Assembly: GCA_947496345.1 (NCBI GenBank)
Contig: CANMCL010000063.1
Coordinates: forward strand, 1 to 5,742
Source of the DNA: Actinomycetota bacterium
Lineage (GTDB): Bacteria > Actinomycetota > Actinomycetes > Nanopelagicales > Nanopelagicaceae
DNA: 5,742 nt
Direction of reading: 5' to 3'
The position numbers and the translations under genes are program-made. The first letter of the stretch is position 1. Every line of letters starts with the position of its first letter. Of the stretch, positions 1 through 5,742 are shown piece by piece. Below the pieces are notes generated by a model, which had not been told where the DNA came from, did not search any database, and saw nothing but the letters and a program-made list of their open reading frames with translations.

Positions 1-121
1 GCCAACAACTTCAGAAGGTCTTGACTTCTTCAACACCGGCGTTAAGTTGATTACTGATGACCCACAAGATGGAGTTCCATCAGAGACAACTGAATACGGT
101 CTAGCAAACGCTTGGGGTTAA
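1..121 (+). CDS. Sugar ABC transporter substrate-binding protein, C-terminal fragment
   Basis: This is the 3' end of a gene that begins before the window. Codons are in frame from position 2 and end at TAA 119-121, giving 39 residues. The tail contains FFNTGVKLITDDPQDG and ends in LANAWG. I see this as the C-terminal end of a periplasmic-binding-protein-like (RbsB/FrcB type) sugar receptor, where a final strand with a 'TGV.L.TD' pattern precedes a short tail. In an actinobacterium it would be a lipoprotein on the outer face of the membrane, handing substrate to the permease encoded next. The call rests mainly on position: binding protein, permease, ATPase is the normal order for this importer class. 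The lipobox and ligand-binding residues lie outside the window, so the substrate cannot be read here. Confidence 0.75.
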   Translation, partial: PTTSEGLDFFNTGVKLITDDPQDGVPSETTEYGLANAWG

Positions 122-128
122 TCCCAGC

Positions 129-149
129 TCTTTAGTGAATAACTAAAGA
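129..149 (+). other. Small hairpin after the binding-protein gene
   Basis: CTTTAGT at 130-136 is exactly complementary to ACTAAAG at 142-148, with a 5-nt loop (GAATA). One more T-A pair (129-149) extends the stem to 8 bp. It starts 8 nt after the binding-protein stop and lies just upstream of a much stronger hairpin. It is A/T-rich and probably weak alone. It could help protect the 3' end of the upstream mRNA, or it may be incidental. Confidence 0.4.
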
Positions 150-156
150 AGAGTGT

Positions 157-194
157 TTAAAGAGGGCGGCTGCTTCGGCAGTCGCCCTCTTTAA
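157..194 (+). terminator. UUCG-capped 17-bp hairpin, terminator or attenuator
   Basis: The arm at 157-173 pairs with 178-194 over 17 continuous pairs, including one G-U (169/182). The loop is TTCG closed by C-G, which is the exceptionally stable cUUCGg tetraloop. The core (GGGCGGCTGC) is far more GC-rich than its surroundings. The only T-run (190-192) is inside the 3' arm, and CTAAAA follows, so the classical U-tail is short. It sits between a binding-protein gene and its permease. There such hairpins often act as partial terminators or 3'-end stabilisers that make the binding protein more abundant than the membrane subunits. The structure is directly visible; the termination efficiency is inferred. 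Confidence 0.85.
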
Positions 195-258
195 CTAAAA
201 CAGCATTTGTAATAAGGTTTTAGCACTAGGGTTCGGTTACCTAACAAGTTCAGTTAAA

Positions 259-268
259 TCAATATTGA
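259..268. promoter_or_regulatory. 10-bp perfect palindrome upstream of the permease
   Basis: TCAATATTGA is a perfect 10-bp palindrome 27 bp before the GTG start of the permease. It overlaps a TTGACA hexamer at 265-270. It could be a half-site of an operator or chance in an A/T-rich spacer. It does not resemble the CG-centred LacI-family operator. No convincing -35/-10 pair could be assigned in 195-295, so whether the permease has its own promoter or depends on readthrough from upstream is open. Confidence 0.2.
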
Positions 269-284
269 CAATTTTTAGTTTTGA

Positions 285-289
285 AAGGA
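285..289 (+). promoter_or_regulatory. Ribosome binding site deciding the permease start
   Basis: AAGGA lies 6 nt before the GTG at 296. That is ideal Shine-Dalgarno spacing and favours GTG 296 over the in-frame TTG at 281, which would place this sequence inside the coding region. Confidence 0.7.
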
Positions 290-295
290 TTCCAA

Positions 296-1339
296 GTGAG
301 CCAAGATACGGCCGTCTACGACGCAGCATCAGAGTTTCAGGATCGCGCATCGTTTAGCCAAAAAATGCAAGCTCTTCTACATAAATATCCATGGCTGAGC
401 TCAACAATGGTGCTCGTTGTAGCATCAATTATCTTTAGTTTTTTCAATGAAAACTTTTTAACACCATCTAACTTCTCACTTATCCTTCAGCAAGTAGCGA
501 TCGTCGGTGCAGTAGCAGCCGGACAGACACTAATTATTCTGACCGCTGGTATCGACCTTTCTTGTGGCGCTATCGCAGTCTTTTCATCAATGACGATGGC
601 AAAATTAGTTCAAGGAACGCCTGGCGAAGGTGAACCAGTTGGTATCGCGATCTGGTTAGCATTCCCAGCCGGACTCCTTGTTGGCATGCTCGGTGGAGCA
701 ATTAACGGCTTCTTAGTAACAAAAGTTAAATTGCCACCATTCATCGTTACCTTGGGAACATTCAACGTATTCCTCGCCCTAACTCTGACTTTAACAAAGG
801 GAACTGTTCCTTCAATTGAGATGGATCCATTCCTATTAACCCTCGGTCATTATGTAGATCTCGGACCGTTCCGAGTTACAACTGGCGTTCTATTTATGTT
901 CGCTATGTATATGGTCTTGGCCTTCGTCTTGCGCTACACCTCTTGGGGACGCCACGTATATGCAGTCGGCGATGATATTGATGCAGCGCGCTTGGCGGGT
1001 ATTTCAGTCAACCGCGTTCTAATGAGCGTTTACATTGTTGCTGGCCTTACCTTCGCACTCGCAGCCTGGATTGTTATTGGCCGCGTTACTGTGGCAAGCC
1101 CGAACACGGGTGGTGATCTAAACCTCGATGCGATCACTGCGGTGGTTATTGGAGGTACCTCACTATTCGGTGGCCGCGGCACGATATTCGGCACGCTAAT
1201 TGGCGCCGTTATCGTGGGTGTTTTCCGTAATGGTTTGACACTTGCCGGCGTTGATTTGTACTACCAGCTCTTGGCTATCGGACTTCTTATTATCTTCGCG
1301 GTCTCGGTTGACCAATGGATCAGAAAGGCACGCAAATGA
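296..1339 (+). CDS. Sugar/cyclitol ABC transporter permease, RbsC/FrcC family
   Basis: This is the membrane subunit of a CUT2-type (ribose/xylose/fructose/inositol class) ABC importer. From GTG 296 it has 347 residues, normal for the family. About 36 mostly polar residues precede the first membrane segment. I count roughly nine to ten hydrophobic segments, near 37-50, 60-83, 88-105, 117-141, 147-167, 195-212, 240-262, 277-293, 296-314 and 320-341. Family signatures visible are AGIDLS (84-89), the cytoplasmic loop GRHVYAVGDDIDAARLAGI (218-236) that docks on the ATPase, and GGTSLFGGRGT (286-296). The stop overlaps the ATPase start in ATGA (1336-1339), so the two subunits are translationally coupled. 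The substrate cannot be deduced from the permease. The downstream IolE-like and Gfo/Idh/MocA genes make a cyclitol or sugar likely. Confidence 0.93.
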   Translation: MSQDTAVYDAASEFQDRASFSQKMQALLHKYPWLSSTMVLVVASIIFSFFNENFLTPSNFSLILQQVAIVGAVAAGQTLIILTAGIDLSCGAIAVFSSMTMAKLVQGTPGEGEPVGIAIWLAFPAGLLVGMLGGAINGFLVTKVKLPPFIVTLGTFNVFLALTLTLTKGTVPSIEMDPFLLTLGHYVDLGPFRVTTGVLFMFAMYMVLAFVLRYTSWGRHVYAVGDDIDAARLAGISVNRVLMSVYIVAGLTFALAAWIVIGRVTVASPNTGGDLNLDAITAVVIGGTSLFGGRGTIFGTLIGAVIVGVFRNGLTLAGVDLYYQLLAIGLLIIFAVSVDQWIRKARK

Positions 1340-2130
1340 GTAAGAAACCAATTCTTCAAGCCGTTGGGCTTGCGAAGTCATACGGTCGCGTCATCGCACT
1401 AGATGGCTCTGACTTGGAACTCTTTCCTGGTGAAGTTCTCGCAGTAGTCGGCGATAACGGAGCTGGTAAGTCAACAATGATCAAATGTTTATCTGGCGCT
1501 GAAGTACCTGATCAGGGTCAGATAATTCTTGATGGTCAAGAAGTTTCATTTAAGCGACCACAAGATGGTCGTCATGCCGGAATCGAAACCGTGTATCAGA
1601 CACTTGCTGTTGCACCGGCTCTCGATATCGCCGCCAATCTTTTCCTAGGTCGCGAAATGCGTAAGAAGGGTCCACTTGGATCAGTTCTCCGTATGATCGA
1701 TAGCTCTGGAATGCGCAAGGCTGCGAAAGAACATATTGCAGCACTTGGCATCGGAACAATTCAGAACATTGCACAGGCTGTTGAAACACTCTCTGGTGGT
1801 CAGCGTCAGGCAGTTGCAGTAGCTCGTGCTGCTGCATTCGGTCAGAAGGTGATCATCCTTGATGAGCCAACTGCAGCACTTGGTGTTCGTGAATCACGTC
1901 AGGTTCTCAAGCTAATCGAATCACTTCGTGATCGCGGTATGCCGGTTATTCTGATTTCACACAACATGCCGCAGGTCTTTGAAGTTGCAGATCGCATCCA
2001 GGTACAACGCCTCGGAAAGCGCGCTGCAGTTGTTACTCCAAAGAGCCACTCAATGAACGATGTTGTTGCAATCATGACTGGCGCTATGACAGTTGATAAG
2101 AAAGACCAAGCACTCAGTTCAGTTCGTTAA
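1336..2130 (+). CDS. Sugar ABC transporter ATPase, single-domain FrcA type
   Basis: This ATP-hydrolysing subunit powers the importer encoded just upstream. The chosen start is ATG 1336, with GAAAGG at 1323-1328 seven nt ahead, giving 264 residues. An in-frame ATG at 1315 lies inside the permease gene and lacks this support. All nucleotide-binding motifs are present: Walker A GDNGAGKST (39-47), Q-loop Gln88, signature LSGGQ (152-156), Walker B VIILDEP (172-178) and H-loop His209. The D-loop reads AALG where many ABC proteins have SALD. I recall this as normal for FrcA-like proteins. RbsA, XylG and MglA are about 500-residue proteins with two fused ATPase domains. This one has a single domain, as in FrcA of the rhizobial fructose system, so it should work as a homodimer. 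It ends 28 bp before the GMC gene on the same strand, suggesting one transcript. Confidence 0.94.
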   Translation: MSKKPILQAVGLAKSYGRVIALDGSDLELFPGEVLAVVGDNGAGKSTMIKCLSGAEVPDQGQIILDGQEVSFKRPQDGRHAGIETVYQTLAVAPALDIAANLFLGREMRKKGPLGSVLRMIDSSGMRKAAKEHIAALGIGTIQNIAQAVETLSGGQRQAVAVARAAAFGQKVIILDEPTAALGVRESRQVLKLIESLRDRGMPVILISHNMPQVFEVADRIQVQRLGKRAAVVTPKSHSMNDVVAIMTGAMTVDKKDQALSSVR

Positions 2131-2158
2131 TCTCTAAGTAAAAGTAGACCTAAAAACA

Positions 2159-3652
2159 ATGGCCACTCCGGTTCGTATTGAATCGGATGTGGTCATTGTT
2201 GGTTCTGGGATGGGTGGAGCAACCACTGCCTATGCCCTGGCAAATAAGGGCGTAAAGACCTTGGTTTTAGAACGTGGCGAACGGATGCCACGCGAGCCAG
2301 AGAATTGGTCACCTTCAGAAATCTTTATGAAGACTCGGTACAAGCCCAATGAAAAGTGGGTGGACGAGAAAGAGAAAGAGTTTGTTCCCGGCGTTCACTA
2401 CTTTGTCGGTGGAAATAGCAAAGTTTATGGAGCATCGCTTCCCCGTTTTAGCCGATTCGATTTCGGATTAATAAAGCACCAAGAGGGAATATCGCCAGCT
2501 TGGCCTTTTACATACGATGATTTAGAACCGTATTACTACGGCGCAGAAGAGTTATATCGCGTTCACGGTGATGCGCAGAATATTTACGGTAATACGCGCA
2601 GTACGCCATTTCCGTATCCTGCAATGAAACACGAGCCTTATGTTGAAGAACTCGGTAGGCGATTAACTAAAGCAGGCGTGCGCCCACATTCGAATTCAAT
2701 GGGAATTGATTTGGGGCCAGGTGGAAAGTGCATCCGCTGTAAGACTTGTGATGGTTTTGTTTGTAAATTAGATGCCAAAAGTGATGCTGAAGTAAATGCT
2801 TTGAATCCAGCGATTGCAACTGGCAATGTAACTTTGATGACCTCGGTGCAAGTAAATCGAATTGTTTTATCGGATGATAGAAAATCTGTTAGCCACTTAG
2901 AAGCAACTCGCAATGGGGAGCAGTTAGAAATTCACGGCAAGAAATTTGTGATTTCAGCTGGTTCGGTAAATACCGCAGCGCTCTTACTGCGCTCTGGTGT
3001 TGCCAATTCATCTGATCAAGTTGGACGCAATTTTATGATGCATAACAACAGCCACATTGCCGCTGTAGACATGCGCCGCAAGAACGATGTCACCTTCCAG
3101 AAAACACTCTCTTTCACAGACTGGTACTTAGACGGCGGCAAGGGTTATCCACTCGGTGCGGTTCAGTTAATCGGAAAAGTGCAAGGCATAATGATGAAAT
3201 CTTTTGCTAAGCACGTTCCGCTTCCACTGCTTAATTTGATTTCAGATCACAGCGTTGAATTTGTGGTGATGAGCGAGGATCTACCGCACCCTGATAACCG
3301 AGTGACTATCGCTGAAAACGGAGCGATTAAGATCGCCCGCAAATCTGTTGGTATGAAGACGCATATGGAACTTCTGCGCCGCGCCAAGAAAGTATTGCGC
3401 AAGGCGGGCTATCAAGGGATCTTTAGACAACCCTTTGATATTTCAATGAACTCGCATCAGTGCGGAACAACTGTGGCCGGCAACGATCCGCGCACCAGCG
3501 TCGTAGACGGATACTGCCGCAGCCACGATCATCACAATCTTTATCTAATTGATGGTGGATTCTTCCCATCATCTGCGGCTATGAATCCGGCGCTGACGAT
3601 CGCCGCGCAAGCACTGCGCGTTGTTGCCGAATCCGATCTTGCGAAAGTTTAA
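2159..3652 (+). CDS. GMC-family FAD-dependent oxidoreductase with Cys cluster
   Basis: This 497-residue flavoprotein of the glucose-methanol-choline family (COG2303-like) most likely oxidises a sugar or cyclitol hydroxyl to a ketone. The N-terminal FAD-binding motif is GSGMGG (15-20), with Glu38 ending the second strand of the Rossmann fold. GGNSKVYGAS (84-93) and ISAGSVNTAALLLRSG (265-280) are GMC landmarks. The C-terminal domain carries the catalytic pair His433 (in SHQCGT) and Asn476 (in MNPALT). Cys191, 194, 197 and 202 form a C-x2-C-x2-C-x4-C cluster in the middle. There is no Tat or Sec signal, so it acts in the cytoplasm on imported substrate. No good Shine-Dalgarno precedes ATG 2159, but the dinucleotide-binding strand begins near residue 10, so this start fits. 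The electron acceptor (oxygen, quinone or another protein) is unknown. Pyranose-oxidase or C-glycoside 3-oxidase-like activity is a possible alternative. Choline dehydrogenase is unlikely in this context. Confidence 0.88.
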   Translation: MATPVRIESDVVIVGSGMGGATTAYALANKGVKTLVLERGERMPREPENWSPSEIFMKTRYKPNEKWVDEKEKEFVPGVHYFVGGNSKVYGASLPRFSRFDFGLIKHQEGISPAWPFTYDDLEPYYYGAEELYRVHGDAQNIYGNTRSTPFPYPAMKHEPYVEELGRRLTKAGVRPHSNSMGIDLGPGGKCIRCKTCDGFVCKLDAKSDAEVNALNPAIATGNVTLMTSVQVNRIVLSDDRKSVSHLEATRNGEQLEIHGKKFVISAGSVNTAALLLRSGVANSSDQVGRNFMMHNNSHIAAVDMRRKNDVTFQKTLSFTDWYLDGGKGYPLGAVQLIGKVQGIMMKSFAKHVPLPLLNLISDHSVEFVVMSEDLPHPDNRVTIAENGAIKIARKSVGMKTHMELLRRAKKVLRKAGYQGIFRQPFDISMNSHQCGTTVAGNDPRTSVVDGYCRSHDHHNLYLIDGGFFPSSAAMNPALTIAAQALRVVAESDLAKV

Positions 3653-4512
3653 GAAAGCCCCAAGACGCGTGTAAGTTCGTTACGTAAATCTTTAGGATCG
3701 ACCGCAACTCCGGTCCAATACTCGATTGCGATTACCGCTTGGTTAACCACCATTCCTAATCCTTGCAGTGTGGTTGCTCCACGCTTACCGGCTTCGGTTA
3801 AGAAGTATGTTTGTGGCGGATTAACAATCACATCTGCCGCCAACATTCCGGGGCGAATCGAATCGAAGTTAATATCTTGTTGCCCTTCGGTGTTAACCAT
3901 GCCCATTGAAGTCGAGTTAATTACTACTTCGGCATCAAGCGGAATTTCAAATGTCTTATTCCACTCCACAAATTCGGCACTAGCGTTAGTTTTATCGTTT
4001 AATAACGCAGTCAGCTCTTCTCCGCGAGCACGTGAGCGATTTACAACATAGAACTTACTCGCACCCGCTAAAGCGAGTTCAACCGCGATTGCCCGCGCCG
4101 CGCCGCCTGCGCCAAGCAGAACAATGGTTTTTCCAGTCGCAGGAGTTATCTCTAAAAATGATTTAAGAAAACCTTTTCCGTCGGTATTTTCACCAATTAA
4201 TTTGCCATCGCGATTTACCGCGCAATTAACCGCTCCAATAAGCGCAGCCGATTCCCCCAGGCTATCTAAATACTTAATCACTTCGACTTTGTGCGGGATC
4301 GAGCAGTTAAAACCCTTCCAATTCATCGCTTTAGCGCCTGCTACAGCCGCGCCCAGCTGGTCTGGGTTCACTTCACAGTTGATGTATCGATAGTGCAGGT
4401 TATTGGCCTTGTAAGAGGCTTCCACCATTGCGACCGTTGGATTTGAGTCAGAACCTTGCGAGAAGCTGCCAGTTAATTCGTGGAGGAAAGATCCGCCTAT
4501 ATCCATAGTCAT
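3649..4512 (-). CDS. Shikimate/quinate dehydrogenase-family NADP oxidoreductase
   Basis: This 287-residue protein has the two-domain shikimate dehydrogenase fold and interconverts a ring ketone and alcohol with NADP(H). The catalytic pair is Lys75 (in SIPHK) and Asp111 (in ENTDG). Asn69 and Asn96 match substrate-pocket positions. The cofactor loop is GAGGAAR (134-140). Asn158-Arg159-Ser160 is the pattern used to bind the NADP 2'-phosphate. NSTSMGM (199-205) and the C-terminal GLGMVVNQ (251-258) are also typical. The carboxylate-binding Ser-x-Ser near the N-terminus is unusual: the region reads GSDSNPT (20-26). ATG 4512 is preceded by AAGG (4523-4520) at 7 nt. The gene is inserted antisense between GMC and IolE-like genes. 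Its stop overlaps the GMC stop. It could be the housekeeping AroE, but the context and odd N-terminus suggest a catabolic paralogue, so no gene symbol is given. Confidence 0.85.
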   Translation of the reverse strand: MTMDIGGSFLHELTGSFSQGSDSNPTVAMVEASYKANNLHYRYINCEVNPDQLGAAVAGAKAMNWKGFNCSIPHKVEVIKYLDSLGESAALIGAVNCAVNRDGKLIGENTDGKGFLKSFLEITPATGKTIVLLGAGGAARAIAVELALAGASKFYVVNRSRARGEELTALLNDKTNASAEFVEWNKTFEIPLDAEVVINSTSMGMVNTEGQQDINFDSIRPGMLAADVIVNPPQTYFLTEAGKRGATTLQGLGMVVNQAVIAIEYWTGVAVDPKDLRNELTRVLGLS

Positions 4513-4519
4513 GTTCAGA

Positions 4520-4523
4520 CCTT
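4520..4523 (-). promoter_or_regulatory. Ribosome binding site of the SDH-family gene
   Basis: AAGG (within ATAAGG on the minus strand) lies 7 nt before ATG 4512. It supports that start over the second Met two codons later. It also means the mRNA must begin upstream of about 4524, close to or inside the promoter of the divergent gene. Confidence 0.55.
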
Positions 4524-4534
4524 ATCGCGCAAGT

Positions 4535-4540
4535 TATGAT
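4535..4540 (+). promoter_or_regulatory. Putative -10 box for a leaderless transcript
   Basis: TATGAT matches the TATAAT consensus at 5 of 6 bases. It ends 6 nt before ATG 4547, so transcription would start at or next to the A of the start codon. No Shine-Dalgarno lies before this ATG, which fits a leaderless mRNA, a common arrangement in actinobacteria. The -35 region at 17-bp spacing (TGTTCA, 4512-4517) is poor. On the minus strand the overlapping CATAAC (4538-4533) could serve the divergent gene, but it matches only 4 of 6 bases. Confidence 0.5.
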
Positions 4541-4546
4541 CAGCCA

Positions 4547-5461
4547 ATGACCGCGACATTTTTACAACGCATCGCATCGGCACCTATTTCTTGGGGAATC
4601 TGTGAAGTCCCGGGTTGGGGCGCGATGTTGCCAACAAAACGAGTCTTATCTGAAATGACCAGTCTTGGTTTACCCGCAACAGAACTTGGTGCACCAGGAT
4701 TTTTCTCAGATGACTCCGCAGAACTTAAAGATCAATTAGCAGAATTTAAAATGTCGATGATCGGTGGATTTACTCCAGTTGTCTTGCACGATAAGTCACA
4801 GGAGAAAGCCACAATAGAAGCGGTGCTAAAGACAAGTAAGAAATTTCAAGAGATCGGCGCAACGCATTTAGTTTCATCACCAGTACAAAGTTGGGACTGG
4901 GCTAACCCAGAAGAACTCAGCAGCGATGAAGTTAAGCAATTTTTTAAGGTTTTGGCCGAAGTAGATCATATTTGTAAAGATCACGGACTTGTTCAAGTAG
5001 TACATCCACATTTACAGACCGTTGTTGAAACTAAGCGAGATATTGATCGTGTAGTAGAAAACTCAGATGTTATGTGGTGTTTGGATACTGGGCATATGAC
5101 AATCGGTGGCCAAGACACAGTTGAGTTCGCTAAGAAGTATTCCAGCCGAGTTGGCCACGTGCACTTAAAAGATGTAAATATGAAGTCTGTGCCACCTGTG
5201 CTTGCTCGACAACAGAGCATTATGGAAGGCGTACAGAAAGGTTTATTTACTCCGCTGGGACAAGGTGATGTACCAATTCTCGAAACAATTTTGGCGCTTG
5301 AGAGCGCTGGCTATCAAGGCTGGTATGTAATTGAACAAGATGTTGCTATCACTGGTGAAATGCCTGGTGTTGGCGAAGGCCCAATCACGGGTATGAAACA
5401 ATCTGTCGATTATTTACACAACGTTGCTGCACCTGCTGTAGCAAATTTAAAAACCAAATAA
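4547..5461 (+). CDS. IolE-like sugar phosphate isomerase/epimerase-family TIM barrel
   Basis: This protein of the xylose-isomerase-like TIM-barrel family is closest in pattern to inosose dehydratase (IolE), which removes water from 2-keto-myo-inositol. From ATG 4547 it has 304 residues, the usual IolE length. Family features are APISWGICEVPGWG (12-25), HPHLQTVVET (153-162), LDTGH (179-183), HVHLKDV (204-210), LFTPLGQGD (233-241) and WYVIEQD (259-265). Probable metal or substrate ligands are His153/His155, Asp180, His206 and Glu263. ATG 4511 is in frame but would add 12 unconserved-looking residues and overlap the divergent start codon, so I prefer 4547. A Gfo/Idh/MocA gene follows after 22 bp, matching the IolG/IolE pairing of inositol catabolism. 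A 3-keto-sugar epimerase, lyase or hydratase role is the main alternative. Confidence 0.85.
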   Translation: MTATFLQRIASAPISWGICEVPGWGAMLPTKRVLSEMTSLGLPATELGAPGFFSDDSAELKDQLAEFKMSMIGGFTPVVLHDKSQEKATIEAVLKTSKKFQEIGATHLVSSPVQSWDWANPEELSSDEVKQFFKVLAEVDHICKDHGLVQVVHPHLQTVVETKRDIDRVVENSDVMWCLDTGHMTIGGQDTVEFAKKYSSRVGHVHLKDVNMKSVPPVLARQQSIMEGVQKGLFTPLGQGDVPILETILALESAGYQGWYVIEQDVAITGEMPGVGEGPITGMKQSVDYLHNVAAPAVANLKTK

Positions 5462-5472
5462 GAAAACGAACT

Positions 5473-5477
5473 GGGAG
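5473..5477 (+). promoter_or_regulatory. Ribosome binding site for the Gfo/Idh/MocA gene
   Basis: GGGAG lies 6 nt before GTG 5484 and is the strongest Shine-Dalgarno in the window. It fixes a GTG start and contrasts with the apparently leaderless gene just upstream in the same transcript. Confidence 0.75.
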
Positions 5478-5483
5478 TAAAAA

Positions 5484-5742
5484 GTGTCTGATATTCGCGT
5501 AGGTGTCATCGGTGTAGGAATCATGGGAGCTGGCCACGCCAGGTACATCACAGACTCTGTTGACGGTGCTGTAGTCACCGCATTCTTCGATCTTGATGCA
5601 GCGCGCATGGATGCACTGGCAAATGAGTTATCTGCTAAATCAGGTGCCACAATTAATAAGCACTCCTCAGTCGCTGATCTAATCAATGATCCAACCGTAG
5701 ACGCGGTAATCATCTGTTCACCCGATGGCCTGCATCCAGAGC
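5484..5742 (+). CDS. Gfo/Idh/MocA-family dehydrogenase, N-terminal part (inositol 2-dehydrogenase-like)
   Basis: An open frame runs from GTG 5484 to the window edge (86 complete codons) without a stop, so the gene is cut by the window, not broken. The start reads SDIRVGVIGVGIMGAGHA, a Rossmann fold with GVGIMG (10-15) for NAD(P) binding. An acidic residue ends the second strand (FFDLDAARM, near 34-42), which favours NAD over NADP. VDAVIICSPDGLHPE (72-86) is the typical Gfo/Idh/MocA 'SP...H' turn after strand four. Enzymes of this family include IolG, which oxidises myo-inositol to the 2-keto compound that IolE dehydrates, so the adjacent pair makes biochemical sense. The catalytic EKP-type lysine motif and substrate domain lie outside the window. 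Other sugar dehydrogenases or oxidoreductases of the family cannot be excluded. Confidence 0.85.
   Translation, partial: MSDIRVGVIGVGIMGAGHARYITDSVDGAVVTAFFDLDAARMDALANELSAKSGATINKHSSVADLINDPTVDAVIICSPDGLHPE

Follow-up and report, generated by a model that had tools for sequence, protein, structure and literature searches.

The fructose (Frc) importer is encoded by genes for a sugar-binding protein (SBP), a permease, a single-domain ATPase and a small kinase, in that order, and importers of this type take up fructose, ribose or mannose. Sorbose dehydrogenases that produce 5-ketofructose exist. A 5-ketofructose reductase (KFR) from Tatumella, possibly of the class of the solved reductase 7cok, is described as converting 5-ketofructose to D-fructose (PMC7954740). 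Here we describe a locus on a 5,742-nucleotide stretch of Actinomycetota DNA (GenBank assembly GCA_947496345.1, contig CANMCL010000063.1, positions 1 to 5,742; hereafter the window). It is a Candidatus Planktophila-type locus made of two modules, the first comprising the genes of a sugar ABC importer together with those of a GMC flavoenzyme and an AroE-fold enzyme, and the second an IolE-like and an IolG-like gene (Table 1). The reading we favour, with a probability of about 0.42, is that module 1 is a sugar oxidation-reduction epimerase and module 2 a separate, ordinary inositol pathway.

The AroE-fold gene belongs to the KFR class. Its closest solved relative is the 5-ketofructose reductase 7cok (E 2.7e-88, 52.1% identity over almost the entire chain), and in a tree the KFR class groups with 7cok and is split with a support of 1.000 from eight separate AroE proteins of same-order genomes, to which the window protein is 20.1–25.8% identical. 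In AroE, the HSxSP motif serves carboxylate binding. All eight separate AroE proteins keep it, and NPT or NPS stands in its place in 13 of the 13 KFR-class rows of the alignment, 7cok included. Like the solved reductase (7cok/7col), the window protein has no HSxSP and retains the Lys of the PHK motif and the Asp of NTDG; it differs in that its gene is paired with a GMC gene, and it may or may not share the substrate. A separate AroE gene was present in all eight genomes searched, each time within about 550 bases of a gene whose sequence starts like chorismate synthase. By motif, by identity and by the presence of a separate AroE, the window gene is not a shikimate dehydrogenase gene. The curated aroE model TIGR00507 is an annotation trap in this respect: the window gene scores 201.6 bits, just over the cut-off of 200.2, and KFR-class genes lie near or above that cut-off (above it in 5 of 7 genomes), whereas the separate AroE genes stay well below, at 130–148 bits in 8 of 8 genomes.

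Importer, GMC and KFR form one conserved unit. Our order-wide counts cover 131 genomes drawn from a larger group, in which drafts may be incomplete. SBP occurs in 13 of them and GMC in the identical 13, GMC being counted at 65% identity or more, which excludes G085 (50% identity) and reduces 14 matches to 13. KFR occurs in 16, and 12 of these belong to the 13 with SBP and GMC; it adjoins GMC on the opposite strand in all 12 genomes that hold the three genes. Among the best 80 of 178 related loci, 20 have a KFR gene no more than 6 kb away from GMC, always on the opposite strand; the ATPase of the importer is as close in 19 and IolE in 7. Homologue lists comprise the best 120 matches. On plasmids, where KFR genes were counted at E values up to 1e-40, all four records with a KFR gene have GMC adjoining it on the same strand (three by annotation, one by tblastn). 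The converse fails, with 84 plasmid records holding a GMC relative against the 4 with KFR. The conserved co-occurrence of GMC and shikimate-dehydrogenase-fold genes that the preliminary description of this DNA had proposed to look for among related genomes is borne out. Of the joint pathway it had imagined, the importer–GMC–KFR part stands as a conserved unit, while feeding into the IolE step is unproven.

The pair also stands without iol genes beside it, both on plasmids of alphaproteobacteria and in other actinobacteria. A LacI-type regulator adjoins KFR in locus L198, and genes that by inspection resemble LacI regulators separate KFR from GMC in L024 and L032. A GMC–KFR pair with little beyond a regulator fits a self-contained conversion to a common sugar. 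Within the freshwater group, L007 keeps importer, GMC and KFR despite lacking most of the gene cluster upstream. We found no description of the pair in the titles and abstract starts of the open-licence papers listed, and the word shikimate is absent from the available part of the Rhizobium GmcA paper (PMC7105596).

The fold of the GMC protein is nearest to the group of fructose and FAD-glucose dehydrogenases, not to fructose dehydrogenase (FDH) alone: five of seven FDH chains rank above FAD-dependent glucose dehydrogenase (FAD-GDH) and two level with it, with level TM-scores. It differs from both FdhL, of the membrane-bound fructose dehydrogenase, and the FAD-GDH alpha subunit in sharing about 25% identity with them. 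No gene for an FDH small or cytochrome subunit lies beside GMC in L001, where the neighbours are importer genes and KFR, and PF13618, a small-subunit family but perhaps not the FDH one, was matched in 1 of 13 GMC genomes. Alignments alone suggest a 3Fe–4S cluster at Cys191/194/197/202; in one relative, P0120, Ser takes the place of the second of these residues.

The importer proteins find their best matches among ribose systems, and the SBP matches in the PDB do not fix one ligand. In common with Frc-type importers, the window importer has a single-domain ATPase, and in five of six plasmid regions around importer relatives the importer genes are followed by a small P-loop kinase akin to the one in L207, the region from Shinella (L227) being without it; in the Tsukamurella region, a PfkB kinase stands between the importer genes and the small kinase. 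Related small kinases also occur near the importer in L009, L197, L199 and L207, and one overlaps the end of KFR in L202. Sugar-type enzymes recur around the relatives. L197 and L206 have RbsD/FucU mutarotases close to the importer, and in L016 and L206 GMC and KFR are separated by a RhaM mutarotase. Ribokinases over their cut-off lie near importer or GMC in L196, L197 and L207, and the importers of L196 and L199 have a PfkB kinase and a class I-type aldolase nearby. As mutarotases act on reducing sugars, these neighbours fit a sugar better than a cyclitol. An inositol importer, which we first favoured on the strength of L207, was weakened as a candidate once relatives of the importer proved to have mutarotases, ribokinases and small kinases close by.

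Upstream of the importer, L001 (positions 178–6766), like L002 and L006, carries minus-strand araD and araB genes followed by a PGDH_C/KARI-like gene, a TIM barrel and an SDR, together with a protein weakly matching D-apionate lactonase (75 of 750 bits). This araD/araB-to-apionate-like cluster, mostly missing in L007, resembles an oxidative sugar pathway.

As an epimerase, module 1 would begin with an importer of Frc-type gene order that takes up a monosaccharide. The cytoplasmic GMC flavoenzyme would oxidise one secondary alcohol of this sugar to a ketone, passing the electrons to an acceptor, and the KFR-class enzyme would use NADPH to reduce that ketone from the other face. Overall, this epimerisation would turn an unusual sugar into one usable by normal metabolism. 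We infer the direction of the reaction, the acceptor and the cofactor; the best model would run from L-sorbose through 5-keto-D-fructose to D-fructose, with L-sorbose as a putative substrate.

Module 2 would work apart from these steps, with the IolE-like protein as inosose dehydratase, the IolG-like protein as inositol dehydrogenase, and iolA, iolB, iolC and iolD supplied from elsewhere in the genome. The fold nearest to the IolE-like protein is that of IolE, and the iol gene context in relatives fits. The protein scores below the TIGR04379 curated cut-off (168.9 of 290 bits), and so does, at 169.5 bits, its 63% relative in L016, which sits among iolD, iolC and iolB; the full-length IolG-like protein of L001 likewise falls under the TIGR04380 cut-off (212.9 of 355 bits). 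In the Planktophila genome G001, the strongest IolE match is the window-type IolE, and iolD, iolA, iolB and iolC lie at two other places. The iolA–D genes, for which the preliminary description had proposed to look downstream, are thus present in that genome, at other places. In its below-cut-off scores, and in having its pathway genes scattered among three or more places in G001, the module differs from described IolE/IolG inositol catabolism.

Several observations weigh against a self-contained sugar epimerase acting on fructose-like substrates. By sequence, GMC is no nearer to FDH than to FAD-GDH (105 versus 134 bits); being no closer by bits or by TM-score, it does not single out fructose. 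In our own mapping, made from PDB titles and an alignment, Ser432 of GMC stands at the position of FDH Asn1146. The small kinase of Frc-type systems was not found in the Planktophila loci L001–L008, a difference from the known gene order. KFR occurs without GMC in 4 of 16 genomes, once (L203) beside galactarate/altronate dehydratase genes, so its substrate may vary, and enzymes of the KFR class may act on various keto sugars or keto acids as reductases. In that locus (L203:5886-8702), FMN-dependent and zinc-dependent dehydrogenases lie near the KFR-class gene. The paper on the Tatumella enzyme also records a Clostridium shikimate-dehydrogenase homologue, 48% similar to it, that was inactive on 5-ketofructose (PMC7954740). 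Further points against separate modules come from the iol genes: the importer lies inside an iol cluster in L207, L016 and L206 bring all parts together, the iol locus L208 contains RbsD and a ribokinase-like gene, and iolD is found in 12 of 13 GMC genomes versus 25 of 118 others (Fisher test, 6e-7 in all genomes, 2.6e-4 with one Planktophila retained and 9e-4 with none). Shared ecology could explain this co-occurrence.

These iol links feed the main rival, which we consider possible but unlikely: a single inositol-isomer pathway, in which an uncommon inositol would be imported and oxidised by GMC to an inosose, KFR or IolG would interconvert isomers and IolE would dehydrate the inosose. Besides the association of GMC with iolD, it draws on the presence of iolD in 14 of 16 KFR genomes and on the importer or GMC adjoining iol-type genes in the window, L016/L206, L207 and L023, the last with GMC and importer by iolD-like and weakly IolE-like matches. 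Such a pathway sits less well with the GMC–KFR pairs of plasmids and other actinobacteria that lack iol genes in their vicinity, with G096, which has SBP, GMC and KFR yet no iolD or iolB match, and with the lack of an iolD match in three of six genomes that have GMC–KFR and no importer at the locus; the mutarotases and ribokinases suit a reducing sugar, not a cyclitol. It is a rival and not the favoured reading because IolE, which adjoins GMC in 7 of the 13 GMC genomes, lies within 6 kb of it in only 7 of the 80 loci.

It is improbable that GMC and KFR instead act on a pentose such as ribose, or on a keto sugar acid, in place of a ketohexose. The ribose-like importer matches, the ribokinase and RbsD of relatives, the dehydratase neighbours of KFR in L203 and the araB/araD and apionate-like cluster upstream in L001, L002 and L006 would all suit such a substrate; the KFR class, however, is named after 5-ketofructose, and L007 retains importer, GMC and KFR without most of that cluster. 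The quinate/shikimate and C-glycoside routes raised in the preliminary description are very improbable, the former, despite its TIGR00507 score, being contradicted by the absence of HSxSP and the separate AroE genes in 8 of 8 genomes and rejected on these grounds, and the latter not being favoured because, although GMC shares its wider fold with C-glucosyl oxidoreductase and the IolE-like protein its TIM barrel with 3-keto-glucoside lyases, neither is nearest by fold to those enzymes, the C-glycoside oxidase and the lyases ranking below other families.

Table 1 Genes and gene fragments in the 5,742-nucleotide window, with the basis of each call
Feature	Position	Strand	Basis
Sugar-binding protein (SBP), last 39 residues	2..121	+	Full gene in L001:6900-7964 is Pfam Peripla_BP_4
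CUT2-type sugar ABC permease	281..1339	+	Pfam BPD_transp_2; top NCBIfam is ribose permease, 202.6 bits, under the 398 cut-off
Single-ABC-domain ATPase, 271 aa	1315..2130	+	Pfam ABC_tran; aligns to first half only of double-domain sugar ATPase models
GMC flavoenzyme, fructose/FAD-glucose dehydrogenase group	2159..3652	+	Pfam GMC_oxred_N and GMC_oxred_C; fold comparison
AroE-fold enzyme, 5-ketofructose reductase (KFR) class	3649..4512	-	7cok E 2.7e-88; alignment and tree
IolE-like inosose dehydratase (putative)	4511..5461	+ (alternative start 4547)	TIGR04379 168.9 bits; fold nearest IolE
Gfo/IolG-like dehydrogenase, first 86 residues, truncated by window end	5484..5741	+	Pfam GFO_IDH_MocA

The four enzyme families that the preliminary description had read from motifs at 2159–5742 (GMC, shikimate-dehydrogenase fold, IolE-like and Gfo/Idh/MocA) are indeed present, with Pfam/NCBIfam matches and intact frames. 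Their placing directly behind an importer holds in so far as permease and ATPase (281–2130) precede them; the AroE-fold gene, however, runs along the minus strand. It converges with GMC and diverges from the IolE-like gene, so that GMC, AroE-fold, IolE-like and IolG-like genes make no single co-directional string. The nearest genome records are freshwater actinobacteria, including Candidatus Planktophila lacus (L006, GMC 93%) and a LacPavin-labelled metagenome-assembled genome (L001, GMC 98%). With window reading frames intact and the GMC, AroE-fold and IolE-like proteins 91–98% identical in the closest relatives L001, L002 and L006, chance is excluded for these genes. L001 also supplies the full-length SBP upstream and the full IolG-like gene downstream (L001:13326-14309).

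The stop codons of GMC and KFR overlap (TTAA, window 3649–3652), and KFR and the longest IolE frame have a CATG start in common (window 4510–4513); such overlaps are a sign of a very compact genome. Between the SBP stop and the permease, at window positions of about 153–195, an inverted repeat rich in G+C, with T residues behind it, looks by eye like a terminator or attenuator. In L006 (13305–14974) and L002, the IolE-like and IolG-like genes are separated by an insertion of a NagB-like gene and, on the opposite strand, a gene for a ROK kinase; the insertion is absent in L001, L004, L005 and L007. Records L002, L033 and L034 are titled Bifidobacterium breve, apparently in error, and their loci resemble those of freshwater actinobacteria.

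A wider and more doubtful proposal is that GMC and KFR constitute a widespread, undescribed two-gene epimerase of actinobacteria and alphaproteobacteria, in which a cytoplasmic FDH/GDH-like GMC enzyme and KFR would convert a rare ketose, for example L-sorbose, by way of free 5-ketofructose to D-fructose, with an importer of its own in streamlined freshwater actinobacteria. Such an epimerase would have stayed hidden because its KFR gene is annotated as a shikimate dehydrogenase. If the favoured reading of module 1 is right, it would give a function to a conserved pair now annotated as a generic GMC oxidoreductase and a shikimate dehydrogenase, and would show a possible food of an abundant freshwater lineage.

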